Source of the DNA: Archangium violaceum
GTDB lineage: Bacteria; Myxococcota; Myxococcia; Myxococcales; Myxococcaceae
Assembly (NCBI RefSeq): GCF_016859125.1
Contig: NZ_CP069338.1
Coordinates: 1,488,001 to 1,552,000 of the forward strand
Length of the DNA stretch: 64,000 nt
Direction: 5' to 3'
A program made the position numbers and the translations under genes. A model generated the notes under the pieces. The model saw nothing but the letters and a program-made list of their open reading frames with translations. It had not been told where the DNA came from and did not search any database. Shown here piece by piece: positions 50,283 through 57,056 of the stretch (its first letter is position 1; every line of letters begins with the position of its first letter).

Positions 50283-51134
50283 TCACCCCCTGCGGGTCCA
50301 GGGGTCATCCCCGAGCAGGGCGGGGAGGAAGGACAGCCACTCGCGAGCGGTACGCACGAGGGCCTCGGCGGAAGAGGCCGCCACCCGGAGCACCAGCCCA
50401 TCCGGCCCGAGCGGGCTGGCGGAGCAGACGAGCCCGGCCCGAGGGGTGACGGGCAGGGCCCCCACGTGCGCGGCGAGCGCCTCGCGGGCGGCGTCCAGTG
50501 CGGGCCCCACCAGGAGCACGGTGCCGATCGCGTCGAAGCGGCCCAGCCGCGCGGGGAGCGCCCCGTGGGAGGGGTCGAGCAGCCAGCGCTCATCGAGCAG
50601 GGCCCGGCCCTCGCGGTGGACGCGGAGCGTGGAGGCGTACCGCGAGAAGGCCCACCGCTCGCCGTTGGCGCTGCGGCCAGCGGTGACCAGGTCCATGAGC
50701 ACGAGCGAGGCGCCCGGGGCGAGCTGGACGTCCTGGCGCTGCGCGAACCGGGCGCCCGTGAAGCACATGGTGGGGTCCGGCGCGAGCACGAGCAGCGCGC
50801 CCTCCTCCACCCGCGCCGACAGCTCGCTGCGGCAGCCACGAGGCGAACGGTAGACCCGGGTGGAGCCCTGGCTCGACAGGAGCGCGGTGGCACCTGGGGC
50901 CACCGCGATGTCCACGGCGAGGTGGTCTCCATCCACCAATCCCCCTCCGAGCGAGCTGGTGTAGACCCAGGCGGCGTGCCCGTGGTTGCGCGGCGTCAAC
51001 AGCCGCAAGGGGCTGTGTGCGCGCGCGGTGCGCACTACGGTGCGAGGACCCACGCGCTCGAAGGCGAGCCGCGCGTCCCCTTCGCGGTGGGCCCGAGGGA
51101 CTCCAGGATGATGGATGGGCTCACTCTGAATCAT
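50283..51134 (-). CDS. ureD: urease accessory protein
   Basis: This 283-residue UreD (UreH) forms the platform on apo-urease for UreF and UreG. Characteristic segments are [61 protein letters not shown] and [14 protein letters not shown]. Start ATG 51134 has AGGTG six bases upstream; a 35-codon in-frame extension is rejected. The gene heads the urease run. Its start lies 20 bases after the stop of the receiver-nuclease gene on the same strand. Confidence 0.92.
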
Positions 51135-51154
51135 GGGTGCACCTGGCCAGAGGT

Positions 51155-52087
51155 CTACTCTGAATCCTTGGCGCTGGCCATGAGCGCGCGGGCGTGAAGC
51201 TCCTTCAGCTTCGCATTGCGGTCGCGTGCCTGCACCCACTCATCCAGCCGCGCGGCATCCAGCACGACGACGAGCACCTCGCCCGAGCGCTCTGCCGCCA
51301 ATCCACTCTCGAATCCCTTGGCGAAGCCGCCGAGCGAAATGAAGAACCCGAGCCGGCAGCGGCCATAACGCCGTTCAATCTTCTTGAGGAAGACGTCGAG
51401 TTCCTTGCGCTCGACCGGTTTCGACCAGTTCTTGCACTCGCCCAGAATGTATTGCGACTGCGCCTGCAGCCAGAAAGGGTCCGTCGACTCGTTGGGAATG
51501 ATGATGTCGATCTCCTCGTCCAGGCTCTTGCGATTCGTCTGGGTGCGCTCGAAGCCAGCAATCGACTTGAACAAGAGCGCGACCAGATCTTCGAGCAGTG
51601 CCCCCTTCTTGAACGGATCGCGCTCGGTCCGAACCCCGTGCCACAGCTCACGGATGGTCTCTTCCCGCTTGCCATTCGCGAGCGCCGCCATCCGCCGCTC
51701 GCGCGCCGCTTCCAGCGCGTGACGCACCTTCACCTTGAGGATGGCCTCGAAATAGGCGTTCTTCTCGAGGTAGTCGTAGGCCCCCGCCGTAAAGGCGCGA
51801 TTCACCGAGTCCGAGTCGGCGATCCCCGTCACGAGGATGACCTTTGCTTCTGGCGCCCGCTGCCGGATGGACTGGATGAGGTCCAGACCCGTGTCCGGCC
51901 CGTAGCGGCCCTGGAGCTTGCGGTCGAGCAGCACCAGGTCCCACCCCGGCTGCTCCAGCTTCGCAAGTGCCGAGGGACCGTCCGTGGCCGCGTCCACGGA
52001 GTACCCCTCGGTCGCCAGAATGGTGCGGTAGGTCTCGAGGAACGCCGGCTCATCGTCGACGAGGAGGATTCTTCCGGTGGGGTTCAT
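51155..52087 (-). CDS. response regulator fused to an Mrr-like PD-(D/E)xK nuclease domain
   Basis: This 310-residue protein has a receiver domain (1-120) with Asp11/Asp12 in LVDDEP, phospho-acceptor Asp55 in LLDRKLQG, Thr87 in LVTGIAD and Lys109. The second domain (about 150-290) has a restriction-endonuclease-like core: Glu166 in LLEDLVALLF, Asp194 in DEEIDIIIP, and Glu217-x-Lys219 in LGECKNW, followed by RRYGRCRLGFFISLGGFAKG. This is the Mrr-type PD...ExK pattern. No DNA-binding helix-turn-helix is seen. The four-base overlap (ATGA) with the upstream histidine kinase makes them one unit. A receiver wired to a nuclease fold suggests phosphorylation-controlled DNA or RNA cleavage, unlike a normal transcription regulator. 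Activity is inferred only. Confidence 0.82.
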   Translation of the reverse strand: MNPTGRILLVDDEPAFLETYRTILATEGYSVDAATDGPSALAKLEQPGWDLVLLDRKLQGRYGPDTGLDLIQSIRQRAPEAKVILVTGIADSDSVNRAFTAGAYDYLEKNAYFEAILKVKVRHALEAARERRMAALANGKREETIRELWHGVRTERDPFKKGALLEDLVALLFKSIAGFERTQTNRKSLDEEIDIIIPNESTDPFWLQAQSQYILGECKNWSKPVERKELDVFLKKIERRYGRCRLGFFISLGGFAKGFESGLAAERSGEVLVVVLDAARLDEWVQARDRNAKLKELHARALMASAKDSE

Positions 52088-53694
52088 GGCCGCTCCATAC
52101 CAGTGGTGGATATCCGCATCACGAAGCGCGCTCCCCCCAGGGGTGAGGCGTCACAGGCAACCAGGCCCTTCATCTCCTTCTCGATTACCTCTCGAACGAG
52201 GGCAAGTCCAAGCCCACTGCTGCCCCGTAGGGAGATCCCCTCCTCGAAGACCGCCCTCCGCATCTCCTCGGGGACTCCAGGACCGTTGTCCTCGATGGAG
52301 ATCCGCACAGCACTGGCCCCCTCGAGCGCCTCGGCCCGCAGCCGGATGACGGGGGACTCGGATGGAACGGACTGCGCTGCATTGCGCAGCACGTTGGTGA
52401 GAGCCAGGACCACACGCGCCCGGTGACCAGAGACCGGGGGCAGCGTGGCCGGCAGCACCTGCTCTATGCGTTGCCTCGACTCGCTCTCGACAGCCGAGAC
52501 CGCATCGCGAATCGCGGATAGCAGCTCGAAGGGCTCGGGCGGTGTTCCCGCGAAATTCGAAAGCTCAACGAGTTGGCTGATGAAGCGGAAGACGGAGTCT
52601 ATACCTCGATCGATTTCTTCCCTCCTCCGAGCAACCACCCCGCCCGGCTCACTCGCCAATAGAACCTCCCGATACAGCGCGCCCACCGCCGTTTTCACCG
52701 GGACGAGCATGTTACGGACTTCGTGAGCGACCATCCGCGAATGGCGAGCCGTGGCTTCGGCAACAGCGCTGGCCTGCACATGGGCCACACTCCCGGTCGT
52801 TCGACCGGCAACTTCGTTTGCCGCGGACAAGGTGAGATCCGCGATGAGTGAGCTGGCCAGAACCGCCATCGCTGATTCTTCCGGCCTTGAGATCTCGGCG
52901 AGCAACTCCAGCCCCATGGGGAGAACCTCGATCCAGCTTCGTTTAGCCTCATCACTTCTGCGGAAGGCTACGAGTCCGAGAAACTCCAGCCGCTCGATCG
53001 ATGCCCAGGAGTACGGAAATTCCGAAGCCTCAATCCCATCGAATGACCAGGTCCGAATCCGCACCAACTCGCTCGCGGTCTGGCGACTCACCCGCCATGG
53101 GTCATTGGGACCGAATGACTGCTCTGCCTCGACATGCAGCAACCAGCGAATGGCGTCGCGCCCCGCAAGCTCAAGAAAGACACGACCAATTGGCGTCAAG
53201 GTCTTCCCGTCACCAACGCCTCGCGTCGCCCGAATCGCCGCAGCATACGCAGCAGCATCAGCATATCCGGAGTGCCCCACAGAGGCCTCGGTTCGCGCAA
53301 TACCCGCGAGCCGATCGAGTTCCAAAGTACGAATCAAACTGGAAAGACCGTCACGCAGACCGATCTGCCGAGCAATGGCCAGCTCTACCCATGCCTCTAT
53401 GTCCTTGTCCGAAGCGTCCCTGCCAATACTCTCGCGCAGGAGTTGCGCCATGCGATTGGCGAAACGAACGACCAGATCCTGTTGCTGCCACTCCATAAAG
53501 AGGTCTTCCGGACTCCGCACAAGCCTGCGTGCACCAGGCCTCGCTGGTTCCTGCTCCAGTCGCTCCAAAGCACGAACAAGAGCGTTCCGCGCGAAGGCCG
53601 GGTCGATGGACACCGAAGGCGAAGATGTCTTCGGCCGACCAGACGGCAGCTCCACTTGCCGAAGGTGACCGCTCAACTCGTCGATGAATGACAC
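52084..53694 (-). CDS. histidine kinase of the receiver-nuclease pair
   Basis: This 536-residue soluble kinase has an N-terminal part (1-300) with no domain I recognise: LTPIGRVFLELAGRDAIRWLL (163-190) and YSWASIERLEFLGLVAF look like winged-helix or sensor helices. The kinase core has His324 in MVAHEVRNMLVPVKTAV, N box TNVLRNAAQSV, DNGPGVPE and SGLGLALVREV. No membrane segment is present. Base composition is lower in GC than neighbours: the row starting at 53281 is about 55% against roughly 70% around it. The start is GTG 53694 with AGGGG nine bases upstream. It precedes the receiver-nuclease gene with a four-base overlap. Foreign origin is likely. Confidence 0.85.
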   Translation of the reverse strand: MSFIDELSGHLRQVELPSGRPKTSSPSVSIDPAFARNALVRALERLEQEPARPGARRLVRSPEDLFMEWQQQDLVVRFANRMAQLLRESIGRDASDKDIEAWVELAIARQIGLRDGLSSLIRTLELDRLAGIARTEASVGHSGYADAAAYAAAIRATRGVGDGKTLTPIGRVFLELAGRDAIRWLLHVEAEQSFGPNDPWRVSRQTASELVRIRTWSFDGIEASEFPYSWASIERLEFLGLVAFRRSDEAKRSWIEVLPMGLELLAEISRPEESAMAVLASSLIADLTLSAANEVAGRTTGSVAHVQASAVAEATARHSRMVAHEVRNMLVPVKTAVGALYREVLLASEPGGVVARRREEIDRGIDSVFRFISQLVELSNFAGTPPEPFELLSAIRDAVSAVESESRQRIEQVLPATLPPVSGHRARVVLALTNVLRNAAQSVPSESPVIRLRAEALEGASAVRISIEDNGPGVPEEMRRAVFEEGISLRGSSGLGLALVREVIEKEMKGLVACDASPLGGARFVMRISTTGMERP

Positions 53695-53875
53695 CGAATG
53701 CACCCCTGGGTGGAACCGCCGAACATAGCAGGCTCCCCAGGACCCCAGGGGCCGACGAGCACGGCCGGATGCAGGAAGACCTGTCGGCCCCGAACCGGCG
53801 CGGCTTTCCGATAGACAACGCTTGTAGCCCAAGGTTACTGGCCCACTCCTGGCTCCGGCTCGTTACATTACCCAC

Positions 53876-55477
53876 GTGCCCACTTCAGCCAACGCGTCCA
53901 TCCTGGCGATCGATCTCGGAACCTCGGCCGTCAAGCTGGCGGTCGTCACCCTCCGGGGGAAGATCCTCGGCGGCGATGTCGAACCCATCCAGCTCGAGCT
54001 GCTGCCCGACGGCGGTGCCGAGCAGGACCCCGAATCCTGGTGGACCGCCATCATCCGTGGCACCCGCCGCCTGATGGACAAGGGAGTCATCTCCGCCGAG
54101 GACATCATCGGCATCAACGTCAGCTCCCAGTGGTCCGGCACCGTCGCCGTCGACGAGCGGGGCAAGCCCCTGCGGCCCGCCATCATCTGGATGGACTCGC
54201 GTGGGGCGCCGCACGTCCGGCGCGTCGCCAACGGCCTCATCCCCATCGAGGGCTATGGCCTCGCCCGCCTGCTCACCTGGGTGCGGCTGACCGGCGGGGC
54301 GCCCACCCTCTCGGGGAAGGACCCGCTCGGCCACATCCTCTACCTCCAGAGCGAGCACCCCGAGCTCTACCGCAACACCTACAAGTTCCTCGAGCCCAAG
54401 GACTGGCTCAACCTGCGGCTCAGTGGCCGCTTCGCGTCCTCCTACGACTCCATCACCCTGCACTGGGTCACCGACAACCGGGACCTCAAGCGCATCACCT
54501 ACGACGAGCGCCTGCTGCAGATGACGGGCATGCCGCGCGAGAAGCTGCCGGACCTGGTGCCCGCGGCGACCGTGCTCGGCCCCCTGCAACCCGAGGCCGC
54601 CCGCGCCCTGGGGCTGAGCGACAAGGTCCAGGTCATCACCGGCGCCCCGGACATCCTCGCGGCCGCCGTGGGCTCGGGCGCGGTGCGCGACCACGAGCCC
54701 CACCTGTGCATCGGCACGTCCTCCTGGCTGAGCTGCCATGTGCCGTACAAGAAGACGGACGTCCTGCACCAGATGGGCACCCTGCCCTCCGCGCTGCCCG
54801 GCCGCTACCTGCTCACCAACGAGCAGGAGTCCGCCGGCATCTGCCTGTCCTTCCTCAAGGACAACATCCTCTTCGGCCACGAGGAGCTCTCCAACAGCGG
54901 CAACGACCAGGAGTCGGTGGACCTCTACAAGGTCCTCGAGAAGGAGGCCGAGCGCATCCCCGCCGGCAGCGACCAACTCATCTTCATGCCCTGGCTCAAC
55001 GGCGAGCGCAGCCCGGTGGACGACCAGCGACTGCGCGGCGGCTTCTTCAACCAGTCACTCAAGACGACGCGCGGGCACATGGTGCGCGCCGTGCTGGAGG
55101 GCGTGGCCTACAACTCGCGCTGGCTCCTCACCTACGTGGAGAAGTTCGTCGGCCGCAAGCTGGACTCCATCCGCATCATCGGCGGAGGCGCCCGCTCGAG
55201 GCTGTGGTGCCAGACGGTGGCGGACGTGCTGGACCGGCGCATCCTCCAGGTGGACGAGCCCGTGCTGGCCAACGCGCGAGGCGCGGCGTTCCAGGCGGCG
55301 GTGGCGCTCGGACACCTCAGCGTGGACGAGATTCCCTCGCTCGTCCCCATCGCCCACACCTTCGAGCCCAACCCGAAGAACCGCGAGCTCTACGACGAGC
55401 TCTTCCGTGAATTCGTGAACCTCTACAAGTGCAACAAGGCCATTTTCGCTCGGCTCAACCGGTCCCGGAGTGCCTGA
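53876..55477 (+). CDS. FGGY-family carbohydrate kinase (xylulokinase-like)
   Basis: This 533-residue kinase uses ATP to phosphorylate a sugar or polyol. The FGGY fold is marked by [14 protein letters not shown] at the start, ISSQWSG-type [48 protein letters not shown], the ATP-binding [21 protein letters not shown], and [15 protein letters not shown]. It resembles xylulokinase or related kinases more than glycerol kinase. The start is GTG 53876 with no good Shine-Dalgarno. The next gene, a PLP-dependent lyase, begins one base after the stop. The two could act in sequence, the kinase making the phosphorylated substrate of the lyase. The true sugar is unknown. Confidence 0.85.
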
Positions 55478-55478
55478 C

Positions 55479-57056
55479 ATGAAGAATGAAATGAACGCGG
55501 CAGGACAGTCTCAGGAGCGAAAGAACACCATGGATCTGCCAGAGCTCGGAACGAGCCTCCTCAACCACGTCCCCCCCCGGCTGCTCTCGACGGCGGAGCG
55601 CTATCTCAAGAACATCCCCCTGCTGCGCAACCGGCTGGCGAAGGAAACGGATTCGATGCTGGCCGAGTTGGAGGGAGGTCTGAAGCCCTACCGGGGCCAG
55701 ACCCGCACCTTCGACCAACTGCCGGCCCAGGGCCTCTCGCGCGAGGAGGTGCTGCGCGAGATGGAGCGCATGAAGGACAAGGAGGAGGACCGGTGGAAGG
55801 AGGGCCTCGTGTCGGGGGCCGTGTACCACGGCGCCGACGAGCACATCGACTTCCTCAACCGCGTGTATGCCATCAACTCGCAGAGCAACCCGCTGCACGC
55901 GGACCTCTGGCCGAGCGCCACCAAGTTCGAGGCCGAGGTGGTGGCCATGACGGCGAACATGCTCGGCGCCGCCGAGGCCAACGCCGGCCGCGCCCCGGAC
56001 GAGCACATCTGCGGCTCCCTCTCGTCGGGCGGCACCGAGAGCATCATGCTCGCCATCAAGACGTACCGGGACTGGGCGCGCGAGACGAAGGGCATCACCC
56101 GGCCGGAGATGGTGGCGCCCTCCAGCGCGCACCCCGCCTTCGACAAGGCCGCGCACTACTTCGGCGTCAAGATGGTCCGCGTGCCCGTGGGGCCGGACTA
56201 CCGCGCCGACGTGAAGGCCACGCGCAAGGCCATCAACCGCAACACCATCGTGCTCATCGGCTCGGCGCCGGGGTTCCCCCACGGTGTCATCGATCCCATC
56301 GAGGAGCTGTCGGAGCTGGCGCGCAAGCGGGGCATCGGCTTCCACACCGACGCGTGTCTGGGTGGCTTCGTGCTGCCCTGGGCGCGCAAGCTGGGCTACC
56401 CCGTGCCGGACTTCGACTTCCGGCTGCCCGGTGTCACGTCCATGTCCGCGGACACGCACAAGTTCGGCTATGCCGCCAAGGGCACGTCCGTGGTGCTGTA
56501 CCGGGGCTCCGAGCTGCGCTCGCACCAGTACTTCACCGCCACCGAGTGGCCCGGCGGCATCTACTTCTCGCCCACCTTCTCCGGCAGCCGGCCCGGCGCC
56601 CTCATCGCCGCGGCCTGGGCCTCGCTGGTGTCCATCGGCGAGGAGGGCTACCTGGACGCCACCCGCCGCATCCTGGAGGCGGCCGACACCATCAAGCGCG
56701 GCATCCGCTCCATCCCCGGCATGCACGTGCTCGGCGAGCCGCTCTTCGTCATCGCCTTCGGCTCGAGCGACGTGGACATCTACAAGGTGATGGAGCGCAT
56801 GGGCGCGAAGGGCTGGAGCCTCAACGGCCTGCACAAGCCCGCCGCGGTGCACCTGTGCGTCACCCAGCGGCACACGCAGCCCGGCGTGGCCGAGCGCTTC
56901 CTCGAGGACCTGAAAGCCGCCATCGAGCACGTGCGCGCCAACCCGGGCGAGAAGGGCACCATGGCGCCCGTCTACGGCATGGCGGGCACGGTTCCCTTCC
57001 GCGGGCTGATCAGCGACCTGCTCAAGAAGTACATGGACCTGCTCTATAAGGTTTGA
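55479..57056 (+). CDS. PLP-dependent lyase, sphingosine-1-phosphate-lyase-like
   Basis: This 525-residue enzyme has the group II decarboxylase fold. The Schiff-base Lys328 lies in [13 protein letters not shown], the phosphate-binding [11 protein letters not shown] precedes it, and [12 protein letters not shown] carries the Asp that pairs with the PLP nitrogen. The overall order matches sphingosine-1-phosphate lyase, including [22 protein letters not shown]. There is no N-terminal membrane helix as in the eukaryotic enzyme. Function would be C-C cleavage of a phosphorylated long-chain or sugar-like amino substrate. The start at ATG 55479 has GGAG eight bases upstream; ATG 55530 is an alternative. 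Myxobacteria make sphingolipids, so a lipid role is possible. Confidence 0.8.

Follow-up and report, generated by a model that had tools for sequence, protein, structure and literature searches.

A hypervariable sensor kinase and a conserved receiver-nuclease form a candidate phosphorylation-gated defence module in myxobacteria

A 64,000-nucleotide stretch of the Archangium violaceum genome (GCF_016859125.1, NZ_CP069338.1, positions 1,488,001-1,552,000 of the forward strand; hereafter the window, whose numbering is used throughout) carries a two-gene unit in which a sensor histidine kinase is paired with a response regulator that ends in a Mrr-type nuclease domain. We favour, with reasonable though not high confidence, the explanation that this pair is a compact, self-contained and immune-like module in which a soluble kinase switches a DNA-cutting response protein by phosphorylation; its task would probably be to serve as a last resort against invasion by phages or other DNA. 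Three observations take the case beyond the original prediction of such a switch: the insertion site is empty in two relatives, gene trees conflict with genus boundaries and decayed copies are found, and a hypervariable sensor stands beside a conserved effector.

Results

A recurrent, translationally overlapping gene pair in GC-depressed DNA

The observed pairing of kinase and receiver-nuclease is confirmed. Both genes lie on the reverse strand, and open reading frames, Pfam matches and alignment define a kinase of 536 amino acids (52084..53694) and a response regulator of 310 amino acids (51155..52087). The GTG at 53694 is the most likely kinase start, as homologues begin MSF. Inspection of the reading frames bears out the four-base overlap originally described, an ATGA shared by the end of the kinase gene and the start of its partner, and this overlap is kept in the window and in 14/14 scan loci checked (ATGA, with GTGA once). 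Intact pairs number 19 in Myxococcota, 14 of them, window included, in the window's order. The other five (L053, L055, L058, L062 and L063, the last entering a masked stretch beyond the nuclease) came from a scan of 84,980 species, which found receiver-REase fusions of this family in Myxococcota only. Because the same gene order recurs with the same four-base overlap at the loci checked, the pairing is more than chance.

The lower GC content reported for this DNA (about 55% in one row against roughly 70% nearby) is real, and the true values are lower still, with the poorest 60-base row at 48%. The 2.67 kb insert described below has a GC content of 63.0%, compared with 68.9 +/- 1.8% for 2.6-kb windows, at the bottom end of the range in the window. 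The depression is centred on the kinase sensor: the kinase gene as a whole stands at 61.9% GC with a GC3 of 0.68, and GC3 climbs from 0.64 in the sensor through 0.73 in the kinase core and 0.82-0.87 in the response regulator to about 0.95 in neighbouring genes.

The receiver-nuclease retains both active sites

The response regulator begins with a receiver domain (residues 1-122, 51722..52087, reverse strand; Response_reg, 1.3e-23 at residues 7-117) bearing the phospho-acceptor Asp55, and ends with a Mrr_cat PD-(D/E)xK domain (residues 140-310, 51155..51670, reverse strand). The latter scores 8.4e-9 against PF04471 over residues 165-284, at 36 bits versus a 21-bit cut-off, and Mrr_cat is matched in 13/14 relatives. 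The acceptor residues (D11, D12, D55, T87 and K109) and the nuclease residues (E166, D194, E217 and K219), both said at the outset to be kept, prove invariant in each of the 14 pairs that are intact in the window's order. Thus the kinase H, N and G boxes described below, together with the acidic pocket, Asp, Thr and Lys of the receiver, place the pair among two-component systems, and score and the E...D...ExK set place the effector in the PD-(D/E)xK, Mrr_cat group.

An AlphaFold2 model of the protein (pLDDT 84.6) shows a (beta-alpha)5 receiver followed by long linker helices (113-135 and 141-154). DSSP assignment of the nuclease part gives helix 158-174 carrying E166, strand 183-186, strand 192-198 with D194, strand 213-219 with E217 and K219, helix 227-239 and strand 244-251, such that the core alpha-beta-beta-beta-alpha-beta topology is present with catalytic residues on the expected elements. 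Neither a missing nuclease fold nor loss of the catalytic residues, the outcomes against which the original prediction had staked itself, was therefore found. Searches of the REase domain or its profile against sequences of solved structures returned no relative, and comparison of the whole model with known structures speaks to the receiver part, as receivers filled the match lists of Foldseek and VIA. Likewise, the PADLOC matches of the protein (SduA, PDC-M43A and PDC-M60C) involve the receiver part only. DNA cutting, gated by phosphorylation, is a prediction from sequence and model.

The same domain might instead serve as a DNA-binding or repair module in the control of transcription or recombination, in which case the pair would be a conventional two-component regulator apart from its unusual output domain. 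Response regulators usually join a receiver to a DNA-binding output, and Mrr-like folds can bind DNA; binding alone, however, needs no retention of an active site, and this one is kept in 14/14 proteins even as REase-domain identity drops to 36-40%. Moreover, no linked target operon recurs beside the module, and we regard this alternative as quite improbable.

A soluble kinase with a dedicated sensor

The catalytic boxes of the kinase are complete, as first proposed. Pfam identifies HATPase_c at 2.2e-15, and alignment places the H box, the N box (LRNAAQ), G1 (EDNGPGV) and G2 (SSGLGLA) within 52087..52770. The phosphorylatable His324 (52723..52725) sits in an HExxN box found in 20/20 kinases; in HisKA kinases, HExxN is tied to phosphatase activity. 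These and the sensor elements below are all encoded on the reverse strand. No transmembrane segment is indicated (peak 19-residue hydropathy, 1.54), consistent with a soluble, cytoplasmic protein.

The N-terminus of roughly 300 residues had been called unrecognised, and Pfam indeed returns no family in the first ~308 residues; this region nonetheless appears to contain a winged helix. In its AlphaFold2 model (pLDDT 84.3, helical), a fast-evolving, all-helical part (residues 1-175, 53170..53694) precedes a segment (residues ~175-275, 52870..53172) arranged in the H-H-H-E-E order of winged helices. A profile match to a PadR-like regulator (E 0.0047) and VIA alignments to TubR (Z 6.6, rmsd 2.9, 78 aligned) and RosR (Z 6.1, rmsd 3.0, 79 aligned) point the same way, and Foldseek found nothing for the sensor model at E <= 0.001. 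The top VIA rows, to TFIIH p52 (Z 8-9), were taken to reflect the common winged-helix arrangement only. Such middling matches (Z 6-9) are fold-level hints; they suggest a winged helix within the sensor, a fold that is itself no proof of DNA sensing or binding.

A profile of the sensor is present in 15/195 genomes, in a search that scored 11 candidates per genome, so that highly divergent copies may have escaped it. Each occurrence is at a receiver-nuclease locus, which suggests a sensor reserved for this effector.

The sensor diverges while the effector is conserved

Pairs occupying the same site in different genomes differ chiefly in the sensor. Between L031 and L032, protein identity is 0.46 in the sensor, compared with 0.80 in the kinase core, 0.94 in the receiver and 0.89 in the nuclease; between L038 and L040, the sensor stands at 0.78 versus 0.94, 0.99 and 0.99 for the same three regions. 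At the DNA level, L031 and L032 share 47-57% identity across most of the sensor, with the flanks and response regulator mostly at 75-95%. Sensors commonly change faster than the core among kinases generally; two other kinases at these loci, the two genes that make up our control, are broadly even along their length (0.83-0.88 overall), and a comparable drop is absent.

The ratio dN/dS in the sensor is 0.16-0.45; being below 1, it does not show positive selection. In most pairs dS, too, is higher in the sensor (2.12 versus 0.51-0.78 elsewhere in L031/L032), a pattern that suggests exchange with divergent alleles. Taken together, these two properties mean that relaxed constraint or recombination could explain the divergence of the sensor.

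The module is inserted at an otherwise empty site and is patchily distributed

Homology to the flanks stops at 51134 and restarts at 53802, delimiting the whole inserted module to 51135..53801. Two congeneric genomes (G045 and G047) have an empty site, with ~71 bp where the window has 2.67 kb holding only the two genes; no transposase gene was seen between the insertion breakpoints. In the window, the insertion lies between ureD and a sugar kinase gene, both present in 6/6 genomes of the genus and adjacent to one another in G045 and G047. At 53876-57056, near urease genes, this FGGY sugar kinase gene overlaps a gene resembling PLP-dependent decarboxylases and lyases (PF00282).

Trees of the two proteins recover the same two clades, one holding the window with g6, g7 and g19 and the other G046 with g19 and g5, so that the window's genus and g19 are split. 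Both trees group the window with other genera and not with its genus-mate G046, yet UreC is 93% identical between the two. We conclude that the two-gene module is mobile in myxobacteria. The window's genome holds no second copy, its remaining matches being receivers, and no plasmid record covers 80% of the receiver-nuclease. Viral contigs yielded REase relatives only, which match mainly the nuclease part in short open reading frames that have no receiver.

Several copies have decayed. L029 retains the nuclease alone, its active-site residues kept and the receiver missing; an intact active site in this setting means that the free nuclease domain may be non-toxic, or may go unmade. L034 has suffered a deletion that runs from the sensor into the nuclease. 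L057 (6656-7597), of Sorangium So0157-2, has a stop codon between receiver and nuclease through which tblastn reads (52% identity, residues 1-305). Other arrangements of related domains were also encountered. In Paraliomyxa, a receiver-REase (L060:6647-7573) has D11 replaced by G and no recognised kinase, in a genome that also carries the intact pair L062, and in the congeneric G046 a related REase domain ends an ATPase-like protein with the P-loop GGYGYGKT (L045:8573-10273).

These results bear on whether the nuclease might serve the host's own programme and not defence: phospho-regulated, it would bring about programmed cell death during the development of multicellular myxobacteria, or cut their DNA under stress. 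Myxococcota are a group with developmental lysis; restriction of the receiver-REase fusions to this phylum in the scan of 84,980 species and control by an in-house kinase, which fits an internal signal, speak for such a role. A core developmental gene, however, should be widespread and have a stable sensor. The REase domain is matched in only 18/145 genomes of the order and is without a match in 127/145, the unit is inserted in one genome at a site that is empty in two relatives, and its sensor is hypervariable. We therefore consider a developmental or stress role unlikely.

Neighbouring genes are mostly housekeeping

Where the original prediction looked to defence islands around homologues, recurrent linkage to defence genes proved absent among 106 neighbour proteins, which are mostly housekeeping. 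Strong, non-generic PADLOC matches (Septu, methylases) amount to one or two proteins each of the 106. Matches to ZorB are probably OmpA/MotB-like proteins (8 are OmpA by Pfam), and those to PD-T4-6 trace to a generic kinase in L063. No methylase recurs among the neighbour proteins, making protection by modification unlikely.

The module resembles Detocs in its proposed logic and differs from it in composition

Detocs comprises a kinase, DtcA, a phosphate-absorbing protein, DtcB, and a response-regulator effector (PMC11728103). Compared at the level of this description, the module shares with Detocs a histidine kinase paired with a receiver that is fused to a destructive effector, and the same proposed phosphorylation logic. 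It differs in having two genes instead of three, DtcB being the one missing, in using a Mrr-type nuclease where the best-described Detocs effector is an ATP-cleaving PNP, and in a sensor with a predicted winged helix. As the original prediction had it, the extra receiver gene is lacking: no stand-alone receiver lies beside intact pairs, and 2/106 neighbour proteins contain a receiver, a count that covers linked genes at the loci examined and leaves room for an unlinked copy elsewhere in the genome. By analogy, phosphatase activity linked to HExxN could take the role that DtcB plays in Detocs.

The module might still be a true Detocs, of the REase-effector subtype, whose DtcB gene was lost or relocated. 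The kinase-to-receiver-effector logic is the same, but the scarcity of receivers beside intact pairs argues against it, and we judge it very unlikely. A PF18178 search of the phylum found no Detocs. We conclude that the module seems to work like Detocs and is not shown to be Detocs. In the ssb-yjcB hotspot of E. coli, three sampled insertions (L123-L125) were all Avs4 with integrases, not Detocs.

Other nuclease systems share single elements. Mrr-type (PF04471) type IV restriction endonucleases have the same Mrr_cat domain and E, D, E-x-K active site, and differ in carrying an N-terminal recognition domain where the module's nuclease has a fused receiver and a linked kinase gene. Shedu SduA, a nuclease with variable N-terminal domains, gives a weak PADLOC match (9.8e-6), suggesting that the model takes in receiver proteins. 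This match covers receiver residues 5-103 only, and Pfam gives Mrr_cat and no DUF4263, so that the protein does not belong to Shedu. On a Phycisphaerales chromosome, three consecutive genes (L066:5470-7480) encode a small kinase, a free-standing receiver and a related REase, which may be the same principle in unfused form; there, receiver and REase are separate and the kinase is without the module's sensor. A literature search of partial coverage did not find a description of the kinase/receiver-nuclease pair.

Discussion

The original reading, a nuclease switch triggered by stress or phage, is supported in part. Sequence, conservation and model topology strongly support the kinase/receiver/nuclease switch. 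A phage or mobile-element trigger is supported indirectly, by the dedicated hypervariable sensor, the clean insertion at an empty site, the patchy and tree-incongruent distribution and the decayed copies.

From the gene pair, the conserved residues, the predicted folds, the insertion and the sensor hypervariability, we infer the following course of events. At rest, a kinase that carries an HExxN box and is translationally coupled to its partner would hold the receiver dephosphorylated. The sensor's ligand may be foreign DNA, from a phage or another source, or a complex of DNA and protein; once it is bound, the kinase would phosphorylate Asp55. The receiver would then act through the long linker helices to dimerise or unlock the PD-(D/E)xK domains, which would cut DNA. 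As a recurrent methylase partner is absent, the outcome would probably be abortive infection or the destruction of unusual DNA.

A bolder interpretation, which we advance tentatively, is that the two genes represent a new class of bacterial immune receptor. The kinase, in the cytosol, would carry a winged-helix-containing sensor that, while the chromosomal site stays the same, is swapped or diversified in the manner of restriction specificity domains or immune receptors, and would relay phosphate to a conserved receiver-gated nuclease. If this is true, a single signalling chassis could be reused, retargeted to new invaders.

Response regulators act almost always on transcription or second messengers. 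A receiver-nuclease under a dedicated soluble kinase would place DNA cutting under reversible phospho-control, with no methylase. The fixed effector and hypervariable sensor together offer a natural allele set for probing what such sensors recognise, in a group, the myxobacteria, whose phage defences have received little study.
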